Source: a bacterium
GTDB taxonomy: Bacteria; CSSED10-310; JAJRTK01
Direction: 5' to 3'
DNA length: 7,510 bases
NCBI GenBank assembly: GCA_024278345.1
Contig: JAJRTK010000066.1
Coordinates: 1-7,510, forward strand
The position numbers and the translations under genes are program-made. Below are positions 2,391-7,510 of this stretch, piece after piece. The notes below the pieces were generated by a model. That model saw only the letters and a program-made list of their open reading frames with translations, was not told where the DNA came from and ran no database searches. Numbering within the stretch: the first letter of the stretch is position 1; every line of letters begins with the position of its first letter.

Positions 2391-4616
2391 TCAAAGATGG
2401 CTCATGAAAATCACGTTCCTGGGGCATTCAGCGGCGCAGACACCGCAGCCCTTGCAATAAGCATAGTCGAACTCGAAGCGGTGACCTACCCGCTTGAGGA
2501 CGCCTTCCGGGCAGTAGGTGACGCAGAGATCGCACTCGTTGCAAACACCGCACGACAGGCAGCGCTTGGCTTCATCGAGGTCCGAAAGTCCCAAATGCAC
2601 TTCGTCAAACGTGGATCGCCGGGCCTCTGGAAGCAGCGTGCCGACTTCCATGGGCGGACGCCGTTCGAAAAGATGCATCTTCAGGGAATCGGGCTCAATC
2701 ACCACGTCGCGCCAGATATCGACCCAATCTTCCGGCCGATCCTCATCGCTCAGGGAGTTTCCGAAGAGCATTTTGTGGATGTGGAGCGCGCATCGGCGAC
2801 CGCTGCCAATGGCGGCCGCTACCGTGCCATCCTTGGTGGCCAGATCGCCCACGGCGAAGACGGGAGTCTCCAGCAATCCGATGAGCCGCCCGTCTTGGCG
2901 CACCTCCGTTCCTTCCGGGAAAACCGAGAGATCCGGCGATTGCCCCAGGGCAAGGATCAGCCGATGGCACTCCATGGAAAAGTCGCTTCCCGGCACGTCC
3001 ACCGGCCGACGCCGTCCCGATTCGTCTGCCTCGCCCAATACCATGCGGCGGCAGACCAAACGGCAGCGTCCATCTTCCAGCTCTTCCAGGGAGATCGGCT
3101 GCGTCAGAAAATCGATGGCGATGCCTTCTTCCAGCCCTTGCTCGATCTCCTCCGGGATCGCCGGCATCTCCTTCCGCGTTCGCCGGTAGACGATACGGAC
3201 GCTCAAGGCCCCAAGACGGAGAGCGGATCGGGCGGCGTCCATGGCCGTGTTCCCGCCTCCCACAACGATGATCTCCTCTCCGTCCACCCGCACTTCTCCC
3301 CGCCGGGAGCGGTCCAGGAAATCGATCCCCTGCACAACTTTCGTCGTCTCCTCCAACCCAAGGCGGAGGGAGCGAAGTTCCTGGAGCCCAGTGGCAACCG
3401 CCAGAGCGTCGTACGACCGAGTCAGCTCCAGAAGCCTGTTCCGATCCACTGGGCTCCCGGTGACGATTTCCACACCAAGCTCGACAATCCGCCCGATCTC
3501 CCGATCAATCACCTCCAGGGGCAGGCGGTAACCCGGGATACCGGAACGAAGCAAACCGCCAACATGGTCACTTGCCTCGAAGACCTTCACGCGGTACCCC
3601 AAGCGCCGGAGATGGTAGGCGGCTGAAAGGCCCGCGGGGCCGGAGCCCACCACAGCCACACTCTCGAAACGCTCGGTCATCGGCTCGATATTGACCTGCC
3701 CACGGTCACCCGCCAGCCGCTCCAGCTCCCGGACATGGACCGCGCCGTCCAGCCCCATGCGGTTACAGCTTTCCACGCAGGGCGCTGGGCATACGCGTCC
3801 ACAAACCGATGGAAACGGGTTCGTCCGCAGGAGAATCGCCAGCGCCTCATCCTGTTCCTCCCGCGCCAGCGCCTGCAAGAAACCCTGGACATCGTTCCCC
3901 GCCGGACAAACGTGGTTGCACGGAGGAACCATCTGCTGCCGCCGCGGCTGCTCGGTTGCCCACTGCCCGGTCTTGATCGCTGGCAGTTCTCCGGAAGGGC
4001 GCGTAAGAAAACCGGGAACCCGCGCTGTGGATGGTTTCACTGCCTCTACCGTGGCCTCGCTGTCCAGCGGCGTGTCCAGGACCGTCACCTCATCGTAACC
4101 ACGGCTCGACGCTGTCAAGTTTCCCCCGACGAAACCAAGATGCTCCAGAGCCGACTGGACCCACTTGAGCTCAAAACCGAGCACCCGAGCCACCGCTCCA
4201 GCCAACGCTGTGTTCACGATGGGCACGCTTCGCGTGCCTAGCCCATTTTCCCGAGCAATGGCCGTGGCATCAACCACGGCGATTCTGTACCCAGGGAACC
4301 GCTCCGAAAACGGGGCTGGAGAACCAGGCGCGTTGATAAGAATCCAGCCTTCCGCCTTCAAACCGCTCAGAATCCCCGGCCCCACCAAGGTCGGGTCCAG
4401 AACGATGACATGATGCGGCTTGTAGACCAGGTTCCGGTTGACGATCGGTTCCCGGCTGTACCGGCAAAACGCCTGGAGGGGCGCGCCGGAGCGCTCCGCC
4501 GCATAGATGCCGAACGCCTGGACGGAATCACCCTGGAGAAAACGCGTGGTGGCAATGATTTTGGCCAGGGTCACCCCGCCTTGGCCACCACGGCCATGGA
4601 TGCGAAGTTCTATCAT
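2391..4616 (-). CDS. Three-part fusion: PorG gamma subunit + GltD/NfnB-type NAD(P)H oxidoreductase + PorD-like 2[4Fe-4S] ferredoxin
   Basis: A 741-residue protein, about four times a normal PorG. Residues 1-180 are the gamma subunit (MIELRIHGRGGQGGV start, AAERSGAPLQAF at 39-50). After a linker rich in Pro, Thr and charged residues (about 185-230) comes a complete GltD-like module. Its cysteine domain has C233, C237, C272, C276, C280 and C284, enough for two 4Fe-4S clusters. The FAD site is VVGSGPAGL (322-330), the NAD(P)H site VVGGGNTAMD (451-460), and FAVGD (587-591) closes the FAD domain. Residues 686-731 form a PorD-like double ferredoxin: C692, C695, C698, C702 and C721, C724, C727, C731, preceded by an extra C686xxC689. 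The inferred role is to pass electrons between the PorAB active site, ferredoxin and NADP(H). A start 7 codons earlier (4637) is possible, but GGGAGG lies 9 nt before the chosen ATG and the family begins here. First gene of the operon, coupled to porA. Confidence 0.92.
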   Translation of the reverse strand: MIELRIHGRGGQGGVTLAKIIATTRFLQGDSVQAFGIYAAERSGAPLQAFCRYSREPIVNRNLVYKPHHVIVLDPTLVGPGILSGLKAEGWILINAPGSPAPFSERFPGYRIAVVDATAIARENGLGTRSVPIVNTALAGAVARVLGFELKWVQSALEHLGFVGGNLTASSRGYDEVTVLDTPLDSEATVEAVKPSTARVPGFLTRPSGELPAIKTGQWATEQPRRQQMVPPCNHVCPAGNDVQGFLQALAREEQDEALAILLRTNPFPSVCGRVCPAPCVESCNRMGLDGAVHVRELERLAGDRGQVNIEPMTERFESVAVVGSGPAGLSAAYHLRRLGYRVKVFEASDHVGGLLRSGIPGYRLPLEVIDREIGRIVELGVEIVTGSPVDRNRLLELTRSYDALAVATGLQELRSLRLGLEETTKVVQGIDFLDRSRRGEVRVDGEEIIVVGGGNTAMDAARSALRLGALSVRIVYRRTRKEMPAIPEEIEQGLEEGIAIDFLTQPISLEELEDGRCRLVCRRMVLGEADESGRRRPVDVPGSDFSMECHRLILALGQSPDLSVFPEGTEVRQDGRLIGLLETPVFAVGDLATKDGTVAAAIGSGRRCALHIHKMLFGNSLSDEDRPEDWVDIWRDVVIEPDSLKMHLFERRPPMEVGTLLPEARRSTFDEVHLGLSDLDEAKRCLSCGVCNECDLCVTYCPEGVLKRVGHRFEFDYAYCKGCGVCAAECPRNVIFMSHL

Positions 4617-4958
4617 GTTTCGATTCCTCCCGATCATTGCTCTGGCTTCATGGAAGATAGAGTGCCCGGTTGACGGCCTCCCCAGATCACCGAATCAGGC
4701 ATGGAAACTGTGATTCGCAAGAATTGGGCCGTCCCACTTCTTCCCGAAGCCAGGGCCGGATTGATACGAAGATCGGCCTCGTCCCCACAAGATGCGCAAC
4801 GAGGTGAAGACTTGCAAGAAAAGTGCAGGTGAGAGAAGGAGGTGGCCCGAAGATAGGCCCTCTCCGCGCGACGACGCGACATCTGAGCTCCACGCTGGTA
4901 AAGGTGTTCCTGAACTTTATCAAGCAAAGGGGATAAAAGCGATGTACTAAGCATGTAA
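4617..4958. other. Upstream region of the por operon, no supported gene
   Basis: This stretch should hold the operon promoter, but I see no convincing -35/-10 pair. One candidate, TTGCGA then TGATTC 17 bp on (minus strand, about 4690-4720), matches the second box poorly. A 106-codon minus-strand frame (4954 to 4634) ends in an ATGA overlap with the rejected upstream start of the fusion gene. It has no Shine-Dalgarno site, T-ending codons unlike the neighbours and no recognisable motif, so it is not called as a gene. Confidence 0.5.
4626..4631 (-). promoter_or_regulatory. Shine-Dalgarno site fixing the start of the PorG-GltD-PorD gene
   Basis: GGGAGG on the minus strand, 9 nt before the ATG at 4616. 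It lies inside the seven extra codons that would follow the alternative ATG at 4637, which has no comparable site. This argues that the protein begins MIELRIHGRGGQGG. Confidence 0.7.
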
Positions 4959-5358: not shown

Positions 5359-5366
5359 GATCACCC
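5359..5366. repeat. Left 8-bp target-site duplication of the outer element
   Basis: GATCACCC directly abuts the GGGACCTATCA end at 5367. The identical octamer at 5683-5690 directly abuts the other end. The duplicated octamer marks where the outer element inserted. Confidence 0.85.
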
Positions 5367-5422
5367 GGGACCTATCAAATTGTCGTGTTTTTGCTTTACA
5401 ATTTTCTTCGCCGAAACGGTGG

Positions 5423-5441
5423 CACCGGCATCTTGCCGGTG
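5423..5441. repeat. Perfect hairpin inside the outer element
   Basis: CACCGGCA pairs with TGCCGGTG around a TCT loop. A conserved 24-bp block (5418-5441) containing it recurs exactly at 5538-5561, while the sequence on both sides differs between the copies. When read as protein it gives GGTGILPV, a string I recall from many spurious small proteins in other genomes, which suggests a widely dispersed REP-like palindrome. That recollection was not checked. Confidence 0.75.
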
Positions 5442-5478
5442 TAGCGCCCTCCGGCCTGCACGGAGCCGGGAAGGAGAC

Positions 5479-5486
5479 CCGCCCCA
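5479..5486. repeat. Left 8-bp target-site duplication of the inner element
   Basis: CCGCCCCA directly precedes the inner GGGACCTATCA end at 5487. It is repeated directly after the inner right end, at 5641-5648. Both copies lie within the outer element, so the outer element was the target of the second insertion. Confidence 0.85.
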
Positions 5487-5640
5487 GGGACCTATCAAAT
5501 CCCCGCGTTTTTGCTTTACACTCCGCGGCGCCGCCTTGGTGGCACCGGCATCTTGCCGGTGGCGGGCTGGACGGGATTCACGGAATTGAACGGTGGGTTC
5601 CTTTCGTGCGTGGACTTGTCAACCGGATCTGATAGGTCCC
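5487..5640. mobile_element. Inner MITE-like element, 154 bp, inserted into the outer copy
   Basis: It runs from GGGACCTATCAAAT (5487-5500) to TGATAGGTCCC (5630-5640) and is flanked on both sides by CCGCCCCA. It shares with the outer copy the first 14 bp, a 14-bp block GTTTTTGCTTTACA (5507-5520), the 24-bp hairpin block (5538-5561) and the last 25 bp (5616-5640). The segments between differ strongly although total length is identical. Both copies have the same orientation. No coding capacity is seen. Confidence 0.87.
5543..5561. repeat. Perfect hairpin inside the inner element
   Basis: Same 8-bp stem and TCT loop as at 5423-5441, exactly 120 bp further on. Its conservation between two otherwise diverged copies suggests it matters for recognition or maintenance of the element. 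Confidence 0.75.
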
Positions 5641-5648
5641 CCGCCCCA
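5641..5648. repeat. Right 8-bp target-site duplication of the inner element
   Basis: Second copy of CCGCCCCA, immediately after the inner TGATAGGTCCC end. The remaining 34 bp of the outer element (5649-5682) follow it. Confidence 0.85.
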
Positions 5649-5682
5649 GCGGTGATGTTGTCAACCGGATCTGATAGGTCCC

Positions 5683-5690
5683 GATCACCC
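5683..5690. repeat. Right 8-bp target-site duplication of the outer element
   Basis: Second copy of GATCACCC, immediately after the outer TGATAGGTCCC end. Ancestral host sequence resumes after it, 40 bp before the next gene. Confidence 0.85.
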
Positions 5691-5721: not shown

Positions 5722-5730
5722 CCTATGCCC

Positions 5731-6579
5731 ATGTTTGTTGGAAGCTTACTCCTCTTGCTGGCTCTTTTCACGGCATCTGCCTTCCTCCTCGGCGAAATGA
5801 AGTGGAGAGGCCTCCGAACGGTCCTGCGGGACAAAATGGAGGCCGCACGTCTGCCGGCGGCACCGCAGGTCTACGATCCTCGCGAGATCCAAGGACTTCC
5901 CGCGCCTGTCCAGCGGTATTTCCAGGCTGCCCTGACCGAGGGTCAACCCATGGTGGAGGCCGTTGATGTGAAGCATGAGGGAACCTTCAACGTGAGTGAA
6001 ACCGGCAAGTGGTGGAGACCTTTCAAGTCCACCCAACGGGTGGTGACCCGCCGCCCCGGTTTCGACTGGGCCGGAAGCATCGATTTGCTCGGGGGCATCC
6101 CCATGAAGGTCCACGATGCCTACGTGGCGGGCGAGGGACTCTTGTCGGTCTATTTCACGGGCTTCATTCCAGTGGTGAAGCAACAGGGTACGCCGCAATT
6201 GGCGCACGGCGAGCTCATGCGGTTCCTGGCCGAAGCGGCCTGGTATCCCACGGCGCTCCTACCCAGCCAGGGCGTGCGCTGGAAAGCCATCGATGACCGA
6301 TCGGCCGAAGCGACGTTCCAGAACGGGGAAACGACCGTAACCCTGCTCTTCAACTTCGGCGACGACGGGCTCGTAGAAACCGTCGCCTCCGAAGGACGGG
6401 AGCGCACCATTGGCGACAGAAGCGAGATCACGCCGTGGCAGGGGCGCTTCTGGAACTACGAAACCTGGAACGGGATGCAGGTGCCCATGGAGGGCGAGGT
6501 CGCATGGATTCTGCCCCATGGCCCAAGGCCCTACTGGCGCGGCAAGATCCACGGTATCACTTACGAACTTGCCCAATAA
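5731..6579 (+). CDS. Membrane-anchored protein of unknown function, DUF6544/DUF6920-like
   Basis: A 282-residue protein (284 if translation starts at the ATG at 5725). Residues 2-21 are a hydrophobic segment (FVGSLLLLLALFTASAFLLG) without a clear cleavage site, so a signal anchor with the rest outside the cytoplasm is likely. The body begins with QGLPAPVQRYFQAAL, continues through HEGTF, a conserved-looking W-rich turn (GKWWRPF), a DAYVAGEG/GLLSVYF region and AEAAWYPTALLPSQGVRW, and ends with WNGMQVPMEGEVAWIL and YWRGKIHGITYEL. This pattern matches my memory of proteins labelled DUF6544 or DUF6920, whose function is unknown; the alternating short beta-like stretches suggest a beta-rich fold. 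There is no catalytic motif I recognise. The gene stands alone, 40 bp after the nested mobile elements, and converges on the next gene. An upstream remnant may be a decayed relative. Confidence 0.8.
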   Translation: MFVGSLLLLLALFTASAFLLGEMKWRGLRTVLRDKMEAARLPAAPQVYDPREIQGLPAPVQRYFQAALTEGQPMVEAVDVKHEGTFNVSETGKWWRPFKSTQRVVTRRPGFDWAGSIDLLGGIPMKVHDAYVAGEGLLSVYFTGFIPVVKQQGTPQLAHGELMRFLAEAAWYPTALLPSQGVRWKAIDDRSAEATFQNGETTVTLLFNFGDDGLVETVASEGRERTIGDRSEITPWQGRFWNYETWNGMQVPMEGEVAWILPHGPRPYWRGKIHGITYELAQ

Positions 6580-6844: not shown

Positions 6845-7510
6845 TCAATCCTGGACCGTCACTTCCAGTTTCCGGTAAAGGATGCGGCCTTTCTTGCAAT
6901 AGATGGCCACACGGCCCGGGTCGGTCAAAGCGATATCGGCGAAGGAGCCAATCTGCTCGCCGTCCAGGATGACAACCACCATGGGACCCAGGGCGTAGTA
7001 GACGAGGCGGTGCCAAACTCCCGGATCGATCTTGGAGCGCAAGCTCTCGGAGAGCTGGCCGTGCGAGAACCGGAATCCCTTGGCATCGTATTGCAGTTTC
7101 AAGCCTCGGCCGCCCCGGTGGGTGCGGAGAACAATTCCGAAACTCGTGTCTGGCTCCATGAGCTGGAACTCCGCGGTCAAGACCAGATCCTTCCAGCTCT
7201 TCCTCGTGGCCAAGGCTCCACTCCGTTCCAGGTCGAGGTGTCCCTCCTTCCACTCGTACCGCCCACTGGTAATCCAGGCGGGAAGTCCCGCGCCGAGTAA
7301 AAGATCCTGGATGGCGGGTCCAACTGTTTTTAGCGGAGTGGCGGTCTTGAAAGGAGTGGCGGAGGGCCGGGGCGCGCGGGTGGGCGATGCGGTGGGCTCC
7401 GGGACCGTGGGAGTGGATCTGCTGGTGGGCGCCCAGGTCGCCGAGGGCGTGGGCTCCGGGACCGTGGGAGTGGATCTGCTGGTGGGCGCCCAGGTCGCCG
7501 AGGGCGTGGG
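6845..7510 (-). CDS. C-terminal part of a protein with a Pro/Thr/Ser repeat linker and a DUF1080/concanavalin-A-like domain (5' end outside window)
   Basis: The frame is open from the right edge to TGA at 6847-6845, giving 221 visible residues and no true start in the window. A TTG at 7213 could serve as a start but would cut the domain. The first 39 residues are a 19-residue unit, PTPSATWAPTSRSTPTVPE, present twice and continuing off the edge. More Pro/Thr/Ser-rich linker follows to about residue 64. The C-terminal 155 residues resemble the beta-sandwich called DUF1080 or 3-keto-disaccharide hydrolase-like: SGRYEWKEGHLDL, SWKDLVLTAEFQL, FGIVLRTHRGG, WHRLVYYALGPMVVVILDG and a final GRVAIYCKKGRILYRKLEV. 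Such domains often bind or cleave glycans on exported proteins. The linker suggests it tethers the domain to another domain or the envelope. The missing N-terminus decides what the protein is. Confidence 0.75.
   Translation of the reverse strand, partial: PTPSATWAPTSRSTPTVPEPTPSATWAPTSRSTPTVPEPTASPTRAPRPSATPFKTATPLKTVGPAIQDLLLGAGLPAWITSGRYEWKEGHLDLERSGALATRKSWKDLVLTAEFQLMEPDTSFGIVLRTHRGGRGLKLQYDAKGFRFSHGQLSESLRSKIDPGVWHRLVYYALGPMVVVILDGEQIGSFADIALTDPGRVAIYCKKGRILYRKLEVTVQD
7394..7510 (-). repeat. Perfect 57-bp tandem repeat encoding a Pro/Thr/Ser-rich linker
   Basis: Positions 7394-7450 and 7451-7507 are identical, and the first bases of a third copy reach the window edge. The period keeps the reading frame and adds 19 residues per unit. 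Identity at synonymous positions points to recent expansion by slippage or unequal recombination, so copy number is likely variable. Confidence 0.9.

Follow-up and report, generated by a model that had tools for sequence, protein, structure and literature searches.

The window, i.e., the whole stretch of 7,510 nucleotides that was analysed, is contig C533 of a 6.06-Mb assembly of 550 contigs that is 88% complete. The region of interest lies between two divergent genes. On the minus strand, positions 2391-4637 encode a 748-aa ferredoxin-oxidoreductase fusion protein, which combines a ferredoxin oxidoreductase gamma domain (POR) with a pyridine-nucleotide oxidoreductase and a 4Fe-4S ferredoxin module. 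Separate genes for other oxidoreductase subunits adjoin it, and the nearest relatives of the fusion protein (65-69% identity) were found in MAGs labelled Gemmatimonadales, Planctomycetota and Acidobacteriota. On the plus strand, positions 5725-6579 encode a 284-aa protein of the DUF6920/DUF6544 family, and no consensus promoter or terminator site was found near this gene. The window had no match in Rfam. Further downstream, at 7370-7483, there are two tandem 57-bp repeats that are 88% identical, and a third begins near the end of the window.

Between the two genes lie two short elements, one inside the other. The outer target duplication, GATCACCC, is present at 5359-5366 and again at 5683-5690, and the ATG of the DUF6920-family gene follows 34 bp after it. 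These octamers directly abut the outer element, of which the left part (5367-5478, plus strand) begins with GGGACCTATCA at 5367 and the right part (5649-5682, plus strand) ends with TGATAGGTCCC at 5682. The inner target duplication, CCGCCCCA, occupies 5479-5486 and 5641-5648 and flanks a complete inner element (5487-5640, plus strand) that likewise starts with GGGACCTATCA at 5487 and ends with TGATAGGTCCC at 5640. In both elements these 11-bp terminal repeats are perfect inverted copies of each other, and the two elements share one orientation. The inner element is 154 bp long, and the outer element has the same length after removal of the inner one and a single octamer. A sequence-only reading of this DNA had described the two octamer pairs abutting the ends and the two 154-bp lengths, and its description proved exact to the base upon re-reading and upon analysis with a script. 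It had also held that the element lacks coding capacity, in agreement with which no recognisable protein or gene was found in any frame of the inner element.

The ends and the target duplications were then investigated throughout the source genome. The exact GGGACCTATCA end occurred 275 times (157 forward, 118 reverse) and the reversed control sequence not at all. When the inner element served as the query of a DNA search, 40 copies matched it along its whole length or the greater part of it with at least 96% identity. A set of 43 copies was then selected by the ends alone, which required a spacing of 145-160 bp between exact ends and the presence of both flanks; 38 of the 43 were exactly 154 bp long. 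The flanking octamers were identical in 32 of the 43 copies and matched at seven of eight positions in another six. As a control, 20,000 pairings of the left flank of one copy with the right flank of another never gave seven or more matches. The 32 perfect octamers all differed from one another, and when a larger set of 58 copies was considered, 8 bp was the only length that exact flanking repeats fitted. A matching octamer was absent from five of the 43 copies; two of these (L012 and L169) resemble a duplication with a one-base indel, and the rest may have arisen by recombination between copies or during assembly. Other copies in the genome thus have the boundaries seen in the window, and most of them have 8-bp duplications, so that the condition under which the sequence-only reading would have been refuted did not apply. 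Both the genome-wide ends and the octamer control agree with the view of the sequence-only reading that chance is a very unlikely explanation.

The family is short and without a transposase gene, carries terminal inverted repeats, is flanked in most cases by a duplication of fixed length and is present in many uniform, dispersed copies, i.e., it shows the features of miniature inverted-repeat transposable elements (MITEs). We conclude, with a probability of roughly 95%, that both elements are non-autonomous DNA transposons of one new MITE family and that they form a nested pair, as the sequence-only reading had proposed. Points against this assignment are the five copies without a matching octamer, the failure of the searches described below to yield an autonomous partner, and the base composition: MITEs are often AT-rich, and the family is slightly GC-rich (59-61% GC, compared with 57.6% in the genome sample).

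The copy number was estimated by a profile search of 100 contigs that had been fetched regardless of their content (913,547 bp). It yielded 46 element pieces, 20 of which were cut by a contig end. If each cut piece counts as half a copy, there are ∼36 copies per 0.91 Mb and ∼240 per genome; halving the number of exact ends (275) leads to a lower estimate of ∼140. The family therefore comprises an estimated 140-240 copies in the source genome, and it accounts for many of the contig breaks in the assembly. After restoration of the empty site, open reading frames of at least 200 aa spanned 6 of 21 insertion points, as opposed to 338 of 500 random points (p = 5e-4), so the surviving insertions avoid long open reading frames.

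The copies fall into two subfamilies and a set of older relatives. Subfamily A comprised 31 aligned copies, most of which had 1-4 differences from their consensus, and subfamily B comprised 18 copies; several of the older relatives have a CACAGGC stem. Subfamilies A and B differ at 45 of 154 positions, while the ends, the size and the central hairpin are common to both. In the window, the inner element belongs to subfamily A, with a single difference from the consensus and 40 near-identical copies in the genome, and the spliced 154-bp outer element belongs to subfamily B, with two differences from the consensus. The locus had been read as an element inserted into another copy of itself; the nesting was borne out, and the identity of sequence was not.

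The octamer CCGCCCCA occurs once in B, at positions 113-120, and was uninterrupted in 20 of 27 B-like or older copies. Such uninterrupted copies serve as paralogous empty sites, and one of the two octamers in the window is B's own. As the intact copies carry the octamer only once, the direction of nesting is settled: an A element entered a B element. An artefact, in which the nest would be a false join of two repeat copies, was considered as well, since many contigs end within copies of the element (the 20 cut pieces above), a sign that assembly of this repeat is difficult. Neither perfect octamers at both levels nor an outer element that after splicing lies within two bases of the B consensus would result from a false join, and the inner copy has a private base at position 50. 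We regard an artefact as extremely improbable.

The nested arrangement of A within B is accordingly taken as real. The sequence-only reading had also derived the order of insertion from this one locus. The entry of one element into the other stood, and it is likely that B was present at its current address before A arrived. This priority falls short of proof, as the nest may have formed elsewhere and the resulting 316-bp composite then transposed here as a whole; in that case GATCACCC would mark one subsequent insertion instead of the earlier of two. Both outer ends are intact and would be usable by a transposase, and the locus taken alone is compatible with such a transfer. Against it, A/B junctions occurred only at the window locus in the sequence examined, which contained no second or donor composite, and the lengths of exact-ended copies are tightly grouped at 154 bp. 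Transfer of a ready-made composite is therefore improbable, and two successive insertions at the present site are preferred.

Both subfamilies have a central hairpin, CACCGGCA-TCT-TGCCGGTG, which in the inner element lies at 5542-5560 and starts at element position 56. In 12 diverse copies, 96.8% of the cells at hairpin pairs were paired. Changes on both sides, which are compensatory across the subfamilies, were present at two of the eight pairs, and one of them appears as C-G, A-T and G-C. The covariation score of the hairpin and terminal repeats exceeded that of all 500 shuffles and all slid versions, although the relatedness of the copies weakens this control. TTGACAA/TTTACAA-like motifs recur close to both ends of the element; any role that the hairpin or these motifs might have we can only infer. 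In some B-type elements or fragments a hairpin-containing unit of ∼35-45 bp is repeated in tandem and forms a small satellite inside the MITE (L076, contig C28, 5640-5876; L200, C140, 1-160; L130, C153, 1-164).

The exact hairpin occurred 215 times in the source genome and was absent from 59 other genomes. This abundance and the tandem hairpin expansions could suggest a REP/BIME-like repeat that was spread by a tyrosine (Y1) REP transposase and whose flanking octamers are incidental. REP/BIME sequences are likewise high-copy, mostly non-genic and hairpin-bearing. They differ from the present family in that the latter has consistent terminal inverted repeats and 8-bp target duplications, which to our knowledge are not among the features of Y1/REP transposition. 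Moreover, the hairpins in the loci examined fall within the 154-bp unit or fragments thereof. Taken together, these observations make an origin as a REP-like repeat very improbable.

For the MITE family, mobilisation would depend on a transposase, most likely a DDE enzyme, that is encoded elsewhere by an element with the same GGGACCTATCA ends and acts in trans on the ends of the MITE. Insertion would occur at a staggered cut with little sequence preference, and repair would duplicate 8 bp of the target. At the locus in the window, a copy of subfamily B is situated between the divergent genes, and the A element went into it behind B position 120, with duplication of CCGCCCCA.

The sequence-only reading had anticipated a full-length insertion sequence (IS) with the same ends; none was found in the source genome when transposase families, end pairs and the neighbours of ends were searched. 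No end pairs 330-4000 bp apart with octamers matching at seven or eight of eight positions were present in the sequence examined by then, and the usual RAT was replaced by other sequence after only 6 of the 275 ends. The only clearly non-MITE sequences with exact family ends were found on contigs C70 (L073, 428-581) and C521 (L074, 1-166). The two have ∼150 bp in common beside a terminal TGATAGGTCCC, including a 24-residue tail of an open reading frame (QRLTGCAIHDWLAELGYPPSHLLN, closing with AIHDWLAELGYPPSHLLN and a stop), and are the only lead to the autonomous element. The shared fragment is cut short by the end of contig C521 and, on C70, by another repeat. No match to the tail was found in Pfam, NCBIfam or plasmids, and weak matches in a genome of the same phylum lay in a frame unlike a transposase.

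Several known families were considered as the partner. ISL3, IS1595 and ISKra4 are IS families whose duplication length (8 bp) and G-rich start fit the present family. In contrast, their copies in the source genome lack GGGACCTATCA ends: the ISL3 remnants have a GGCTCTTC-like end, the IS1595 remnants have the end GGCTCTATATG, and the ISKra4 copies are decayed. As the remnants are mostly truncated or decayed, this result excludes the copies that were read and not the families. IS256 was set aside since PF00872 had no match in this incomplete bin, and DDE_Tnp_1 was represented by one fragment only. Because the bin is 88% complete and all sampled contigs were longer than 2.5 kb, a collapsed multi-copy IS could have been missed, and the partner would most likely be such an IS, collapsed into a short contig outside the bin. 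It is unlikely that the family's mover represents an undescribed transposase family, to which the unmatched tail beside the family's terminal repeat on C70 and C521 might point; if it did, the covarying central hairpin would be a working part of the system, serving for instance as a site for the transposase or a host factor.

No copies of the family were found in the 59 other genomes, all of which belong to other genera and seven to the same phylum. The end-defined pattern was likewise absent from 84,980 species genomes and from IMG/VR, collections that may omit the host itself, and only unrelated papers turned up when the literature was searched for the sequences of the ends and the hairpin. 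Within the searches made, the family is confined to a single lineage, which belongs to a bacterial phylum that has been sampled sparsely.

Among prokaryotic MITEs, families of Haloquadratum walsbyi are apparently mobile in a genome without a functional matching transposase (PMC3119063). Like prokaryotic MITEs in general, they resemble the present family in being short and dispersed, with terminal inverted repeats, a fixed-length target duplication and no transposase, and differ from it in sequence and host. Bacterial genomes typically contain 10-20 MITE copies (PMC4596501), and the copy number in the source genome is far above this figure. In Porphyromonas gingivalis, BrickBuilt_18 contains MITE239_11, a MITE within a MITE, and internal tandem arrays were described as well (PMC4596501), so that both nesting and internal arrays are shared with the source-genome family. 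The terminal inverted repeats of BrickBuilt/MITE239 match IS5-family elements and their target duplications vary in length (PMC4596501), whereas the duplication is 8 bp here and the nest joins two subfamilies of one family. The elements thus constitute a new MITE family of an ordinary sort, as nested and satellite-bearing MITEs and MITE families that lack a functional matching transposase in the genome have already been published (PMC4596501, PMC3119063). What the locus provides is a base-accurate definition of a very abundant family, including its ends, its 8-bp duplication and which subfamily entered which; biologically, it is an unusually tidy case of a well-known phenomenon, and the mechanism is not new.

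Several families of short repeats are abundant in the source genome. Nesting of a second kind was found on contig C262 (L216, 1718-2029), where B-type ends 312 bp apart are flanked by a perfect 8-bp duplication, CGAATTTC. This apparent second nest was rejected as a counterpart of the one in the window, since the B-type element is split by ∼160 bp of different sequence with ACCGTTCACG / CGTGAACGGT ends. Another abundant repeat of ∼220-240 bp, with ends GGCCT(C/T)GGTCAT... / ...ATGACCGAGGCC, was present at L063 (C5, ∼350-590), L073 (C70, ∼210-430) and the end of L077 (C16). It had ∼37-39 end matches in the 0.91 Mb of sampled contigs, and on C5 it breaks an ISL3 transposase gene. The motif TATCCACGCAAGGCGGGACA was also very frequent, with 70 matches at up to three mismatches in 0.91 Mb (sampled contigs L204-L303), and occurs for example at L197 (C205, ∼127-150). 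On contig C112 (L201, 1-290), the right part of an A-type element and its adjoining sequence are present as two head-to-tail copies, which form a tandem duplication of ∼139 bp.
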